NCBI RefSeq assembly: GCF_030268685.1
Contig: NZ_BSRQ01000007.1
Span: 124,001-188,000 of the forward strand
Source of the DNA: Microtetraspora sp. NBRC 13810
Lineage (GTDB): Bacteria > Actinomycetota > Actinomycetes > Streptosporangiales > Streptosporangiaceae
Reading direction: 5' to 3'
DNA: 64,000 nucleotides
Each line of letters starts with the position of its first letter. The first letter of the stretch is position 1. The notes below the pieces were generated by a model. The model was not told the origin of the DNA and searched no databases. It saw nothing but the letters and a program-made list of their open reading frames with translations. Position numbers and translations under genes: made by a program. This document shows positions 1 through 34,809 of the stretch, in pieces.

Positions 1-102
1 CTCCGGGAGATCGTCAGGACGCATCCCACGGTGACGCTGCTCCACGCCGCCCGGACCCCGGAGGTCAACCACGCCGTCGTGCTGGCCCGTCTCCTGAGCT
101 AG
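1..102 (+). CDS. C-terminal end of an unidentified protein (partial)
   Basis: The window opens inside a plus-strand reading frame whose last 33 codons end at a TAG (100-102). The visible peptide finishes with VVLARLLS. It is too short to assign to a family. Codon use, with G or C in most third positions, fits a real high-GC gene. It converges on the DUF427 gene, and the two stop codons lie only about 30 bases apart, separated by a 25-bp tandem duplication. Confidence 0.6.
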   Translation, partial: LREIVRTHPTVTLLHAARTPEVNHAVVLARLLS

Positions 103-144
103 CGGATCAGGAGAACAGCTGAGCTAGCGGATCAGGAGAACAGC
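95..144. repeat. 25-bp perfect tandem duplication across two stop codons
   Basis: Positions 95-119 and 120-144 are identical. Copy 1 contains the TAG of the plus-strand gene (100-102), and copy 2 contains the stop of the minus-strand DUF427 gene (132-134). Because copy 1 also holds the same TCA triplet (107-109), the duplication could have left the DUF427 stop unchanged while adding spacer. Confidence 0.9.
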
Positions 145-863
145 GACTTCGGCCGCTCCTGGAGGACCTCGTCCACGTAGACGTCGACCTTCTCGTTGTA
201 GAAGGAGATCAGGCCGGCGACCTTGCGGCTCTCGTCCAGCGGCGTCGGGTAGGACCAGGCGAGATCGGCCTGCCCGTTGACGCTCCAGTACTCCGCCGTG
301 CCCTTGTACGGGCAGTGCGTCACGGTGCCGGTGTGCTCCAGGAGGTCGAGGCGGACGTCGGTCTTCGGCAGGTAATAGCGCGTGGGCAGGCCGGTCTCGA
401 AGAGGATGCGGGCGCCGCGGGAGTCGGCCACCGTCACCCCGCCGACCTCCACCCGGATCCGCCGGGAGCTCGCGAGGATGTCCACCCGGGTGTAGGGGTC
501 GCGGGCGTGCACGAAGACCTCTTCGTCCTCCTCGAACCACGCCTCCAGCGCGTCCCAGGTGAAGCGGACCCTGCCGCGCAGCTCCTCGATCGGGGAGTCG
601 GGGTAGACCAGGGCGGCGTCCTGCCGGTCGCCCAGCGCGTACACCTGGCCGTCGCCCCGGCTGGGCGAGTGCTCGATCTCGCCGGTGGGCTTCAGCAGCC
701 CCGGCTCGACGTCTTCCAGCGGGAAGTAGTACGTGGGGTAGTAGGGCTTCTCCCACACCAGCAGGGCCCGGGTTGTGTCGGCGACCGGACGCCCGCCGAA
801 GTAGGCGCGAACTCTCTTGGCCGTGGGCTCAAGCCGCACCCGGCCGCGTTTTGTCGGCTCCAT
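132..863 (-). CDS. DUF427 family protein with two tandem DUF427 domains
   Basis: This 243-residue protein is made of two copies of the same roughly 100-residue domain, at about residues 11-115 and 135-230. Each copy has the family pattern of a short strand before a YYFP or YYLP motif, then a HSPSRG- or HCPYKG-like loop, then a final YP segment; the second copy carries the more typical HCPYKG and YWSV motifs. DUF427 proteins are small beta-rich cytoplasmic proteins of unknown function, and two-domain versions are common in actinobacteria. The ATG at 863 has no strong upstream start in frame. The gene is divergent from the NhaA-thioredoxin gene, with about 150 bases between them for both promoters. 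The family call is firm; no activity can be given. Confidence 0.85.
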   Translation of the reverse strand: MEPTKRGRVRLEPTAKRVRAYFGGRPVADTTRALLVWEKPYYPTYYFPLEDVEPGLLKPTGEIEHSPSRGDGQVYALGDRQDAALVYPDSPIEELRGRVRFTWDALEAWFEEDEEVFVHARDPYTRVDILASSRRIRVEVGGVTVADSRGARILFETGLPTRYYLPKTDVRLDLLEHTGTVTHCPYKGTAEYWSVNGQADLAWSYPTPLDESRKVAGLISFYNEKVDVYVDEVLQERPKSLFS

Positions 864-30508: not shown

Positions 30509-30904
30509 ATGCGTGGGGACCTCGACGAGATGCCGGACCACTGCATGGTCGAGGTGGCCATGGAGGTGCTCGGCGGGCGGTGGAAGCTGGCGATCCTGCG
30601 CAAGCTCCTGGACCGGACGCACCGCTTCGGCGAGCTGATGCGCGCGATGCACGGCGTCACCCAGCGGATGCTGACCCGGCAGCTCCGCGAGCTGGAGGCC
30701 GACGGGCTGGTCGTGCGGACGGTCTACCGCGAGGTGCCGCCCAAGGTCGAGTACTCGCTGACCGAGGCGGGGCGAAGCCTGGAGAAGATCGTCCTGCTGC
30801 TCGACGACTGGGGCCGCTGGTACCTCGGCGCCCGCCCGCCCGCCGGCGAGCGGCGGCCCGGCCTCCCGCCGCCCGCGGGCGAGGGAGGCCGGGAGACCCA
30901 TTAG
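30509..30904 (+). CDS. HxlR family transcriptional regulator
   Basis: This 131-residue winged-helix protein matches the HxlR family: CMVEVAMEVLGGRWKLAILR at the start, RFGELMRAMHGVTQRMLTRQ for the recognition helix, and a wing that reads PPKVEYSLTEAGRSL. The cysteine at position 12 is the family's conserved one. The ATG at 30509 has a GGAGGT site. It is divergent from the efflux pump and is its likely repressor. Its stop overlaps the convergent SGNH-fold gene by four bases. Confidence 0.9.
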   Translation: MRGDLDEMPDHCMVEVAMEVLGGRWKLAILRKLLDRTHRFGELMRAMHGVTQRMLTRQLRELEADGLVVRTVYREVPPKVEYSLTEAGRSLEKIVLLLDDWGRWYLGARPPAGERRPGLPPPAGEGGRETH

Positions 30905-32706
30905 TAGAAGTGTTCGAAGTCGCGGTGCGGCGGGCAGGGTTCGCCACGGCCGTCACAGGGGGCGGTGCCGCCACCGCCCTCGCCGGGAAGCGGGATCCAG
31001 ATGTCGATGACGTTGTCGATCCCGCCGCCCGAGGGACTGCCGCTGGGTTCGACGCCCGAGGGGGGCGGTTCGAGCACGTCGCCGGCCGGCGGCGGGTCCT
31101 GCGGCTCGGGGTAGACGGGGATCGGGGTGTAGTCGTAGCAGCTTCCGGGGAGCTGGGTGTAGCGGTAGGCGTTCAGGTCGCCGCCCCACTCGACGAGCCA
31201 GCAGCCGCCGGAGCCGTCGGGCATCCGCCTGGCCGACCGGCCGCAGCAGGACAGCGGGTCGTGCCTGCCGGGAGTGCTGGCGTCGCCGAGACCGGAGCTG
31301 ATCGGGTCGCTGCTGCCCGTCGGGGAGTTGGCCGCGATCCACACGCCGAACCACAGGTCCCAGATCGCGCTGCCGGGTGAGGGGTAGTAGCCGTCGGGCA
31401 CGGGCGTCCCCGCGCTGCCCGGCTCCGCGGAGACGCAGTGCCGGGACTGCCGGGCGCTCAGGCAGAACCGCGCCATGTTCGGCAGGACGCCGTCCTGGAG
31501 CTCCCGCTCGGTGGGCACGGCCTGTCCGGGCTGCGCCCTGGTGATCACCTGGCTGAGCTGCGGCGCCTTCGCCCACAGGCCCGGGCAGCGCGCCTGGAGC
31601 CAGCGCGCCAGCGACTGGCCGATGGCCAGGTGCCCCGCCCTGTTGGGCATGAAGCTCTCCTGGAAGGCGTGCACGTTGTTCCCCGCGCGCAGCTCGGCGG
31701 CGTTCAGGGTCCAGGCGTGGAAGTACGGCGCGGCCGTACCGACCTCGTGACCCGCCACGGCGGGGGCCGGGTCGAAGACCTCCACGGCGGGCTTGGCCGG
31801 GTCGGCGGCGTTGAAGGCGGTCACGGCGGTCCGCAGCCGGGCGTTCAGTGCGGAGACGTAGCCGTGCAGGGCGTCCAGCGTCTGGGCGCCCATGAACGTC
31901 AGCCACGGGTTGCCGGTCGCCTTCACCGGGGACGGGTAGAGGTTCAGCACGATCAAGGCGTTGGGCGCGGCCCTGCGGGCGGCCGTGAGCGCCGCGGTGA
32001 CCTGCGTCTGGACCTCGGCCAGGTTGTTCTGCTCGCGGGTCAGCACGGCTTGGAAGTTGCGGAGCTGGTCGTTCCGCCAGCCCGGGGCGGGCAGGACGCC
32101 GCGCAGCAGCGCCGCGGTGGCCCTGCTGATGTAGGTGCCGAGGGCGTTCTGCAGGACGTCGGTGTAGTGTGCGTCGCCGGCGCCGAAGCCGAGGAGCACC
32201 ACGTTGGACTCGGGCCGGATGATGTTGCCCTGCGGGATGTTGCGGCCGGTGCCGGCGTCGACGTCGACCTGGTCGATCATCATGTGCTTGCCCTGGGCCC
32301 CGGAGGAGGCGGCGAGGGCGAGCCGGTCGATGTCGATCGAGGTCCGGATCGAGCCCTCGCTCAGTGCGACGGGCAGGGTGGTCCGGTTGCTCGCGGACAG
32401 GTAGGCGAAGGCCAGCGCGCCCGGGGCGTACGGGGACTGGTGGCGCCAGAAGGTGGAGTGGCCGTTGCCGGGCGTGTAGCCGCCGGCGCCCTCGCCGGAG
32501 CTGAAGCCGTCACCGGCCACGGACACCACCCGGGGGACCGAGGCCGGCACGGGGGTCGCCGCCGCGCCCCCGCACCCGGGCACGTTCGGCCCCGCCGAAG
32601 CCGCCGTGCCCCCTCCCACCAGCATCCCGGCCGCCATGACCGCGACCAGCGCGGCCCTCGCGCAGCGAACCCGCCAGGGCGGGCGTAAAGCATGAGCATG
32701 TCTCAT
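30901..32706 (-). CDS. Secreted SGNH-fold protein with substituted catalytic residues
   Basis: This 601-residue exported protein has a signal peptide (residues 1-38, ending in AASA). Residues about 58-375 follow the layout of actinomycete SGNH/GDSL hydrolases, but the key residues differ. The GDS of block I reads GDG (65-67, in AGDGFSSGEGAGGY), so the Ser nucleophile is Gly67. The Gly-Gly-Asn-Asp of block III reads GAGD (175-178), so Asn is Gly177. The final His of DSFHPN is Met353 (ESFMPN). Gly and other scaffold residues remain. The last 200 residues are Cys-, Pro- and Gly-rich and have no clear family. It is probably a binding protein or an enzyme with a different mechanism. The ATG at 32706 is chosen because the signal peptide starts there. 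Confidence 0.78.
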   Translation of the reverse strand: MRHAHALRPPWRVRCARAALVAVMAAGMLVGGGTAASAGPNVPGCGGAAATPVPASVPRVVSVAGDGFSSGEGAGGYTPGNGHSTFWRHQSPYAPGALAFAYLSASNRTTLPVALSEGSIRTSIDIDRLALAASSGAQGKHMMIDQVDVDAGTGRNIPQGNIIRPESNVVLLGFGAGDAHYTDVLQNALGTYISRATAALLRGVLPAPGWRNDQLRNFQAVLTREQNNLAEVQTQVTAALTAARRAAPNALIVLNLYPSPVKATGNPWLTFMGAQTLDALHGYVSALNARLRTAVTAFNAADPAKPAVEVFDPAPAVAGHEVGTAAPYFHAWTLNAAELRAGNNVHAFQESFMPNRAGHLAIGQSLARWLQARCPGLWAKAPQLSQVITRAQPGQAVPTERELQDGVLPNMARFCLSARQSRHCVSAEPGSAGTPVPDGYYPSPGSAIWDLWFGVWIAANSPTGSSDPISSGLGDASTPGRHDPLSCCGRSARRMPDGSGGCWLVEWGGDLNAYRYTQLPGSCYDYTPIPVYPEPQDPPPAGDVLEPPPSGVEPSGSPSGGGIDNVIDIWIPLPGEGGGGTAPCDGRGEPCPPHRDFEHFY

Positions 32707-33131: not shown

Positions 33132-33734
33132 GTGGTAAGTGCTCACGCACAACCCGACGGCCCGTCCGTCCCGGACGCCGCGCTCATCCGGGAGTCGCTG
33201 GTGGAGCCGGAGCTCTTCGCGACGCTGTTCGACCGGCACGCCGACGAGATCTTCCGCTACGCCGCCAGACGGCTCGGCCACGAGGAGGCCGAGGACGTGA
33301 CCGCGGAGGTGTTCCTCGCCGCCTTCCGCGTCCGGGCGCGTTATGACCCGGCCCAGCCGGACGCCCGGCCCTGGTTGTACGGCGTGGCGACCAGAGTGAT
33401 CTCCCAGCATCGGCGGTCGGAGCGAAGACGGACCAAAGCCCTCGCCCGCCTCGCGCCCGACCCGCCCGGCTCGTTCGACGAACGCAGCGTGAACCGCGTC
33501 ACCGCCGGGCAACTCCAGCCACGGCTGGCCCAGATGCTGGCCCGCCTCAGCGCGGCCGAACGTGACCTGCTGTTACTCGTCGCCTGGGCCGACCTGAGCT
33601 ACGAAGAGGCGGCCGTGGCGCTGGGCGTCCCCGTCGGCACCGTCCGGTCCCGGCTGCACCGCACCCGCGCCAAGCTCCGCCGCGCGCTCGGCGGGAAAGA
33701 CCCCCTGATCCTGGAGCACGCACATGAACGATGA
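33132..33734 (+). CDS. ECF-type RNA polymerase sigma factor
   Basis: This 200-residue sigma-70 family protein has region 2 (ELFATLFDRHADEIFRYAAR, then EEAEDVTAEVFLAAF) and region 4 (LSAAERDLLLLVAWADLSY and GVPVGTVRSRLHRTRAKLRR), and lacks regions 1 and 3, as ECF factors do. It would redirect RNA polymerase to a small gene set in response to a signal. The GTG at 33132 is the likely start. Its end overlaps the next gene by 11 bases, so the pair is translated together and that gene probably modulates it. Confidence 0.92.
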   Translation: MVSAHAQPDGPSVPDAALIRESLVEPELFATLFDRHADEIFRYAARRLGHEEAEDVTAEVFLAAFRVRARYDPAQPDARPWLYGVATRVISQHRRSERRRTKALARLAPDPPGSFDERSVNRVTAGQLQPRLAQMLARLSAAERDLLLLVAWADLSYEEAAVALGVPVGTVRSRLHRTRAKLRRALGGKDPLILEHAHER

Positions 33735-34809
33735 GTTCGACACCTTCGCCCGCCTCCGCCCGGCCGCTCCGCCGTACCCGCCGCGGGCGCGGGCGGAGGC
33801 GCGGCGGCGGCTGCTCGACGCGGCACGGAGGGATTCCGGCGGTCGCCGGCCCGCCTGGCTCGCCCGGTTCCGGCCGGTGACGCCCCGGGGCGCCTGGCAG
33901 GCGGCGGGCGCCTTCGCGCTGACGGCGGCCATGGTCGGAGGGGTCACCGTCGCACTGTCCGGCGGGACCGGCGAGGTACGGGGACCGGCGGTGAGCCGGG
34001 CCGTGGCGAGCGATCCGCCTCCCGCCCCGGAGACCTTCCCCGGCGAGCCGAATCCGCAGCCCGGGAAGTTCATCCGCATCGACTCCGAGATGATGTTCAC
34101 GTCGGAGGGCGATGGAGGCAAATGGCTCTACCGCAGCAAGCGGGCGTTCTACCGCGCGGTGGACGGCCGGAGCGATGGCCTGTTGTGGTCCGAGAGCCTG
34201 GCGCCGAAGGCGTTCCCCGGCCTGCCGCTGCCGGAGCAGGCGAAACGAACGCCATCCGGCGGGGGCTGGAACGAGGTCGACGGTCTCTGCCCCGGCCGGC
34301 CCCAGGACAACCGCAGGGACTACGTCCACCTGGCCGGCCTGCCCGCCGACGAGCAGGCGATGCTGAACCTCCTCTACCGGCACGTCGATCGCGAGTTCGC
34401 CGACCGCGAGGCGTTCCACACGGCGACCGACATGCTCAGGGAGACCTACATGCCCCGGGCACAGCGCCAGGCGCTCCTGAAGGCGATCGCCATGATCCCG
34501 GGAGTCGAGCCGGCCCAGGACGTCGCGGACTCCGCAGGGCGCAAGGGGGCCGCCCTGGGAATGACGCAGGACGGCGTACTGACGCAGTTGATCTACGATC
34601 CGCTGACGTCCATGTTCCTGGGGGAACGCGGCACGATCGTGGACGAGAAGACCGGTGGCGGCCCGGTCGGCGGCGTGGTCGCGCTGACCGCGCAGACCTC
34701 GGTGACCGTGGTCGACAAACTGCCCGAGGCGCCGGACGCGGCGAAGGACAGCACCTGCGAGATGGCCGCGGAGAACTCGGCACCGGGTGAGGCCACACCC
34801 GCCCGGTGA
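33724..34809 (+). CDS. CU044_5270 family membrane protein paired with the sigma factor
   Basis: This 361-residue protein has a short cytoplasmic N-terminus (about 55 residues with FARLRPAAPPYPPRARAEARR), one membrane helix (AAGAFALTAAMVGGVTVAL) and a long outer domain. The outer domain includes AMIPGVEPAQDVADSAGRKG and LIYDPLTSMFLGERGTIV, which mark the CU044_5270 family. Members are regularly found directly after an ECF sigma gene, as here with an 11-base overlap. An anti-sigma or signal-receiving role is inferred from that pairing; no zinc-binding anti-sigma motif is present. Confidence 0.85.
   Translation: MNDEFDTFARLRPAAPPYPPRARAEARRRLLDAARRDSGGRRPAWLARFRPVTPRGAWQAAGAFALTAAMVGGVTVALSGGTGEVRGPAVSRAVASDPPPAPETFPGEPNPQPGKFIRIDSEMMFTSEGDGGKWLYRSKRAFYRAVDGRSDGLLWSESLAPKAFPGLPLPEQAKRTPSGGGWNEVDGLCPGRPQDNRRDYVHLAGLPADEQAMLNLLYRHVDREFADREAFHTATDMLRETYMPRAQRQALLKAIAMIPGVEPAQDVADSAGRKGAALGMTQDGVLTQLIYDPLTSMFLGERGTIVDEKTGGGPVGGVVALTAQTSVTVVDKLPEAPDAAKDSTCEMAAENSAPGEATPAR

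Follow-up and report, generated by a model that had tools for sequence, protein, structure and literature searches.

An SGNH-fold protein of Microtetraspora without the catalytic Ser, Asn and His, probably a secreted pseudoenzyme

The window, a 64,000-nucleotide stretch of DNA from Microtetraspora sp. NBRC 13810, contains a gene for an SGNH-fold protein in which the catalytic Ser, Asn and His are replaced by Gly, Gly and Met. The reading we favor is that of an SGNH-fold pseudoenzyme, probably secreted, that probably acts as an extracellular binder, a role we infer. All 26 other subfamily members found in 341 genomes of the family keep the three residues, the changes at conserved positions concentrate on and around the catalytic residues, and the gene's branch has on average been under purifying selection.

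Gene, fold and catalytic blocks

The initial annotation had placed the gene at 30901-32706 of the minus strand, and this interval indeed encodes 601 aa from ATG to TAA (Table 1). Its GC3 (0.95, and 0.978 within residues 41-400) falls in the range of four neighboring genes (0.87-0.97), and homologues confirm the frame; the gene is therefore this one rather than the overlapping plus-strand ORF. The product consists of a signal-like N-terminus, an SGNH domain (about residues 57-375) and a Cys-rich tail, and is probably secreted. The 3′ end of the gene overlaps that of a convergent HxlR-family regulator gene (30509-30904, plus strand) by 4 bases (30901-30904). Upstream, divergent genes (33132-34809) code for an ECF sigma factor and for a protein of the CU044_5270 family; 425 bases separate them from the SGNH gene, and a regulatory relation is conceivable. 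The neighboring genes, MFS and HxlR on one side and ECF sigma and CU044_5270 on the other, suggested no functional link, and by eye, from gene starts, no neighborhood shared with L046, L047, L015 or L017 was apparent.

Table 1. Features of the SGNH gene and its product
Feature	Coordinates	Strand	Basis
Whole gene, 601 codons, ATG start, TAA stop	30901..32706	-	GC1/2/3 0.68/0.57/0.95
Signal-peptide-like N-terminus, about residues 1-39, ...LVAVMAAGMLVGGGTAASA	32590..32706	-	by eye from sequence
SGNH-fold domain, residues 57-375	31582..32538	-	VIA-align Z 16.4/16.1/15.7; homology to intact relatives
Block I, residues 65-70 GDGFSS; Gly67 replaces catalytic Ser	32497..32514	-	A2 alignment, codons, SrL mapping
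Block II Gly136 (ASSGA), kept	32299..32301	-	invariant in A2; equals Gly54 of SrL
Block III, residues 175-178 GAGD in place of GGND; Gly177 replaces oxyanion-hole Asn	32173..32184	-	A2, codons, SrL mapping
Residues 312-321 DPAPAVAGHE; 7 residues (GPNGTSV-type in relatives) missing and N314A, beside invariant H320	31744..31773	-	A2
Block V, residues 350-355 ESFMPN; Met353 replaces catalytic His	31642..31659	-	A2, codons, SrL mapping
Cys-rich tail, residues 415-601, 8 Cys	30904..31464	-	tail search and Cys comparison

The SGNH fold claimed in the initial annotation was borne out by structural alignment of a predicted model. The AlphaFold model, built from a four-row alignment and of low confidence (mean pLDDT 38.5, pTM 0.45), aligned by VIA-align with SaPLA1 (4hyq; Z 16.4, 2.9 Å over 217 residues, span 57..371), SrL (5mal_A; Z 16.1, span 58..371) and SsEst (1esc; Z 15.7, span 57..375), and the same three structures ranked first in Foldseek. 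These scores cover the domain and exceed the best Z of 7 to 8 that is typical of models without a clear match. The model of an intact Planotetraspora relative (pLDDT 42.2) also matched SGNH structures, with PlaA and 4hyq first, and blocks I, II, III and V occur in order in the alignment of 23 subfamily members (A2). At its low pLDDT, the predicted model thus assigns the window protein to the SGNH/GDSL fold superfamily.

Sequence models see the protein poorly. Pfam Lipase_GDSL_2 (PF13472) gave 10.7 bits (E 0.76) with a gathering cut-off of 32.9; it matched 15 of the 23 A2 members at E≤0.1 (best 5.2e-5), so that the entire subfamily is poorly seen. As a control, the source genome contains 11 PF13472 matches above the cut-off, none of which is the window gene. 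NCBIfam returned nothing for the window protein. A PDB sequence search with the window protein gave one match (E 0.42), which we took as chance. When the A2 profile was run against PDB chains, designed repeat proteins (‘Cake’) came first, an artefact with single-match i-Evalues of 66-180 in the three shown, and 5mal and 4hyq scored weakly (0.034 and 0.11).

An ordinary relative, L013, bridges the window protein to SrL. It aligns with 5mal at E 9e-21 and with 4hyq at E 2e-26, and its GDS, SGA, GGND and HP fall on Ser10, Gly54, Asn82 and His216 of SrL, counted on the printed 5mal chain. By matching blocks in A2, Gly67, Gly136, Gly177 and Met353 of the window protein occupy these four positions. 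Each of Ser10Ala, Asn82Ala and His216Ala abolished SrL activity on all three pNP esters reported as tested, while Gly54Ala lowered it by about 40% with one of the esters and by about 10% with the other two (PMC10779480). The window protein has thus lost three of the four residues that name the family, and a single one of these losses sufficed in SrL. By analogy with the SrL mutants, we would expect no canonical ester hydrolysis by the window protein.

The block readings GDG (Gly67), GAGD (Gly177) and ESFMPN (Met353) in the initial annotation are exact at the codon level: G65-D66-G67 is GGT GAC GGC, G175-A176-G177-D178 is GGC GCC GGC GAC, and E350 to N355 is GAG AGC TTC ATG CCC AAC. Both A2 and the SrL mapping agree with the three losses. 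The nearest intact relatives, L018 and L019, have AGC, AAC and CAC at the Ser, Asn and His sites, from which the window codons differ by 1, 2 and 3 nucleotides, so a single sequencing error cannot explain the losses. An assembly or sequencing artefact is accordingly very hard to credit, as the three codons are separated by hundreds of bases and the frame is intact in all other respects. Of the residues of an active SGNH hydrolase, the block II Gly is present (Gly136), and Ser, Asn and His are Gly67, Gly177 and Met353. The acid is kept as E350, which stands in place of Asp in all 26 other subfamily members. The catalytic losses come together with G176A, with N314A and with the deletion of 7 residues from the conserved FDPNTAGPNGTSVVAGHE-type loop.

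Relatives, selection and the Cys-rich tail

We took as relatives the 26 subfamily places besides the window found at E<1e-30 in the 341 family genomes, the window's own included. Of these, 22 were read in A2 and four (L025, L019, L048 and L049) individually. Ser, Asn and His are kept in 26/26, including L032, whose block I (GDSYTVGEG) was missed by the first pattern, and in this sample the window protein alone has lost them; the orthologues with the same substitutions that the initial annotation proposed to look for were thus not found among the 341 genomes. The closest relatives are L018 and L019, at 45% identity by BLAST and 49% in the genome search; L018 is 47% identical in A2, and L019 is 52% identical over 309 core columns. 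Both belong to a single genus; 2 of its 4 genomes carry the gene, one copy having an in-frame stop. Along the domain, the other A2 members are 29-47% identical to the window protein.

In the tree, the window protein joins L018 and L019 (98/91), with an unsure order inside the trio (89/77), and has a much longer end branch (1.05) than L018 (0.046) or L019 (0.11); the tree program issued warnings about long branches and about the unusual composition of L013, the outgroup. With the window protein as query, the genome contigs yielded no relative, and with P0002 as query they yielded three loci of Planotetraspora, a member of the Streptosporangiaceae; the L015 protein among the Planotetraspora loci is the same as the L010 protein (G021, same family as the window). 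One record was found in the plasmid collection (Nonomuraea gerenzanensis, 30.1% over 59% of the query). The ‘class’ search matched 2/394 genomes at E≤1e-10, of which one was the source genome itself and the other had been found before, and the ‘order’ search matched 25/345, all already found by the family search. A larger relative, L041 (G234:C1), has an 836-residue open frame, truncated where the locus ends (1,359 aa in the genome), with a weak SGNH-domain match and RESFHPN.

The 22 other A2 rows share 72 invariant columns; the window protein keeps 61 of them and departs at 11: S67G, F131L, L142M, G176A, N177G, N314A, three columns of one deletion, H353M and P379A. The 11 include every one of the three catalytic columns, which has a chance of 0.0028 if 11 changes fell randomly among the 72, and of about 0.001 by hand calculation with the three deletion columns set aside (8 of 69). 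The concentration of changes on the catalytic columns is more than chance. The initial annotation had described three independent changes in an intact scaffold. The changes do lie in three separate codons, yet all are on one branch, in an order that cannot be recovered. The scaffold is otherwise kept, as the 61 columns attest; the AGH after PN that had been counted as part of it (H359) does not belong to the subfamily scaffold, as the other A2 members have A, S, T or D at position 359 and the invariant GH is that of G319-H320-E321. At residue 359 (31630-31632), six residues past Met353, the window protein is the only one of the 23 A2 rows to have His; two ordinary SGNH relatives, L011 and L013, also have His there (HPNxxGH).

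Homology between the window protein and L018 runs nearly end to end and continues on both sides of 15 gaps, which, being seen in the protein alignment, show that the frame was kept and not the length of each DNA event. We fitted a codon model with our own script to 303 codons of six sequences, the catalytic columns kept, with a fixed topology (L018 and L019 as sisters) and shared codon frequencies. dN/dS was estimated at 0.081 for the window branch and at 0.234 for the other branches, the two-ratio model improving on the one-ratio model by 3.7 lnL units, and setting dN/dS to 1 on the window branch was worse by 22.8 lnL units; the ratios are rough, with synonymous sites probably near saturation and a GC3 of 0.95 in the window gene against 0.87-0.88. 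As a branch average, which covers the periods on both sides of the loss, selection is purifying and neutrality is excluded. Tajima relative-rate tests gave about 37 changes private to the window protein against 13 private to L018. The window protein was faster than L018 with 10/10 outgroups (closest 36 vs 19) and faster than L019 (closest 31 vs 20), and L018 and L019 were roughly even.

The tail, which the initial annotation had left unassigned, remains so, with clear recurrence just in the two closest relatives. A search with residues 425-601 in the 341 family genomes gave clear matches only in L018 and L019 (46-48%), besides a broken tail-only remnant in G153 and marginal matches in G055 and G039 (E 2.9e-4 and 9.7e-4). 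After the signal-like segment, the window protein has an even number of Cys (10). Five of these (C45, C374, C487, C488, C584) are common to L018 and L019 and absent from 22 others (L025 included, L048 and L049 left out), and C591 is common to L018, L019 and all 22. C415/C424 are present in all 22 and absent from L018/L019, and C502/C523 are in the window protein only. Gain and loss of Cys in pairs would fit disulfides. In G153, the L019 copy (G153:C53) is full length with an in-frame TAG, and the tail-only remnant (L056:3317-3694, G153:C30) is 82% identical to the L018 tail with a stop inside the match; judging from these frames, the gene seems to be decaying in that genome.

Explanations for the loss

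The features of a pseudogene are not seen: the 601 codons are intact, GC3 is 0.95 and dN/dS of 1 is rejected as a branch average. Those of a pseudoenzyme are: the relatives carry the full catalytic set and are presumably active, the protein's own residues are lost, and selection is present as a branch average. The ancestor would have belonged to an actinobacterial SGNH hydrolase subfamily keeping Ser/Gly/Asn/His. In the lineage of the window protein, the nucleophile (S67G), the oxyanion Asn (N177G) and the base (H353M) would have changed together with the adjoining loop (7-residue deletion), while the remaining fold persisted, as did the Cys-rich tail. The cleft, emptied and less polar with its Gly, Ala, Gly and Met, may then serve together with the tail to bind, outside the cell, an acyl chain, a lipid or an acylated glycan that is left uncut; an acyl chain would go well with the small or hydrophobic active-site replacements. 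Dead enzymes commonly end up as binding proteins. Of the initial interpretation, which offered lipid or glycan binding or a new mechanism, the fold, the losses, the kept scaffold and the purifying selection stand, while binding is a role we infer and the new mechanism found no support.

The accelerated branch also fits relaxed constraint, and the inactive form is known from one genome; together with the broken copy in G153, this makes slow loss possible. The gene may be catalytically dead and on its way out, the enzyme having become dispensable and its active site having drifted first in a still unbroken frame, an account we consider unlikely but serious. It would explain the fast window branch, the patchy spread of the tail-bearing form (3/341 family genomes, the window's included), the in-frame TAG and the tail-only remnant in G153, and surroundings that looked different, by eye, among the window, L046 and L047. 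Yet GC3 is 0.95 and the branch dN/dS is 0.08, an average that may hide a recent loss; 61/72 invariant columns are kept at about half overall core identity, homology to L018 runs on across the 15 gaps of the protein alignment, and a Cys pair has been gained.

An enzyme with a relocated or different mechanism, using for example H320, H359, E350 or Ser69/Ser70 as another catalytic set, is improbable. These residues are present, and H359 is the one His at its position in the 23 A2 rows; however, E350 and H320 are invariant in A2 and hydroxyls at 69/70 occur in nearly all intact relatives, so they do not compensate for the losses. The oxyanion Asn is lost too, and L011 and L013, which have His at the 359 position, keep the catalytic His as well. 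A more far-reaching version of the favored pseudoenzyme reading would have a secreted esterase turned dedicated extracellular binder in a single actinomycete lineage, with nucleophile, oxyanion hole and base removed jointly, the cleft opened by the loop deletion and extra disulfides in a tail particular to the lineage, or else novel catalysis in an SGNH cleft; we hold this only tentatively and think it rather doubtful.

Precedents and meaning

The extracellular Streptomyces enzymes SrL (PDB 5mal) and SaPLA1 (4hyq) share the domain fold (Z 16.1 and 16.4), the block order and the block II Gly with the window protein, which differs in its Gly, Gly and Met for Ser, Asn and His, its longer domain and its extra Cys-rich tail of ~190 residues. 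The SGNH subfamily of its own family (Planotetraspora L015-L017; L010, L018-L040, L048, L049) is homologous along the domain, and L018/L019 share the tail; 26 of these relatives keep Ser, Asn and His, whereas the window protein alone has lost them. Oskar is an intracellular protein. Its C-terminal SGNH domain resembles the window protein in that Ser and His are disrupted, and lipid binding has been proposed for it, but it belongs to an insect protein fused to an OST-HTH domain (PMC2848206). The Arabidopsis GDSL pseudoenzyme At1g54030 has the same Ser to Gly change in block I and is reported to be without lipase activity and retained with a new function; unlike the window protein, it is a plant protein described with one catalytic change (PMC4757993). 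GDSL variants without catalytic residues are described as potential pseudoenzymes (PMC10779480).

In the open-licence PMC papers that we searched, no SGNH pseudoenzyme from a bacterium lacked all three residues, although one may be in print elsewhere. SGNH pseudoenzymes are already known as a kind, and the window protein is a new bacterial member. It escapes the standard family model (10.7 bits vs a cut-off of 32.9). Dead members of lipase/esterase families have been described in plants and insects, and the window protein adds a case that is bacterial and probably secreted. Because relatives at 45-52% identity are intact, it forms a clean pair with them for asking what role the SGNH fold plays once catalysis is removed.
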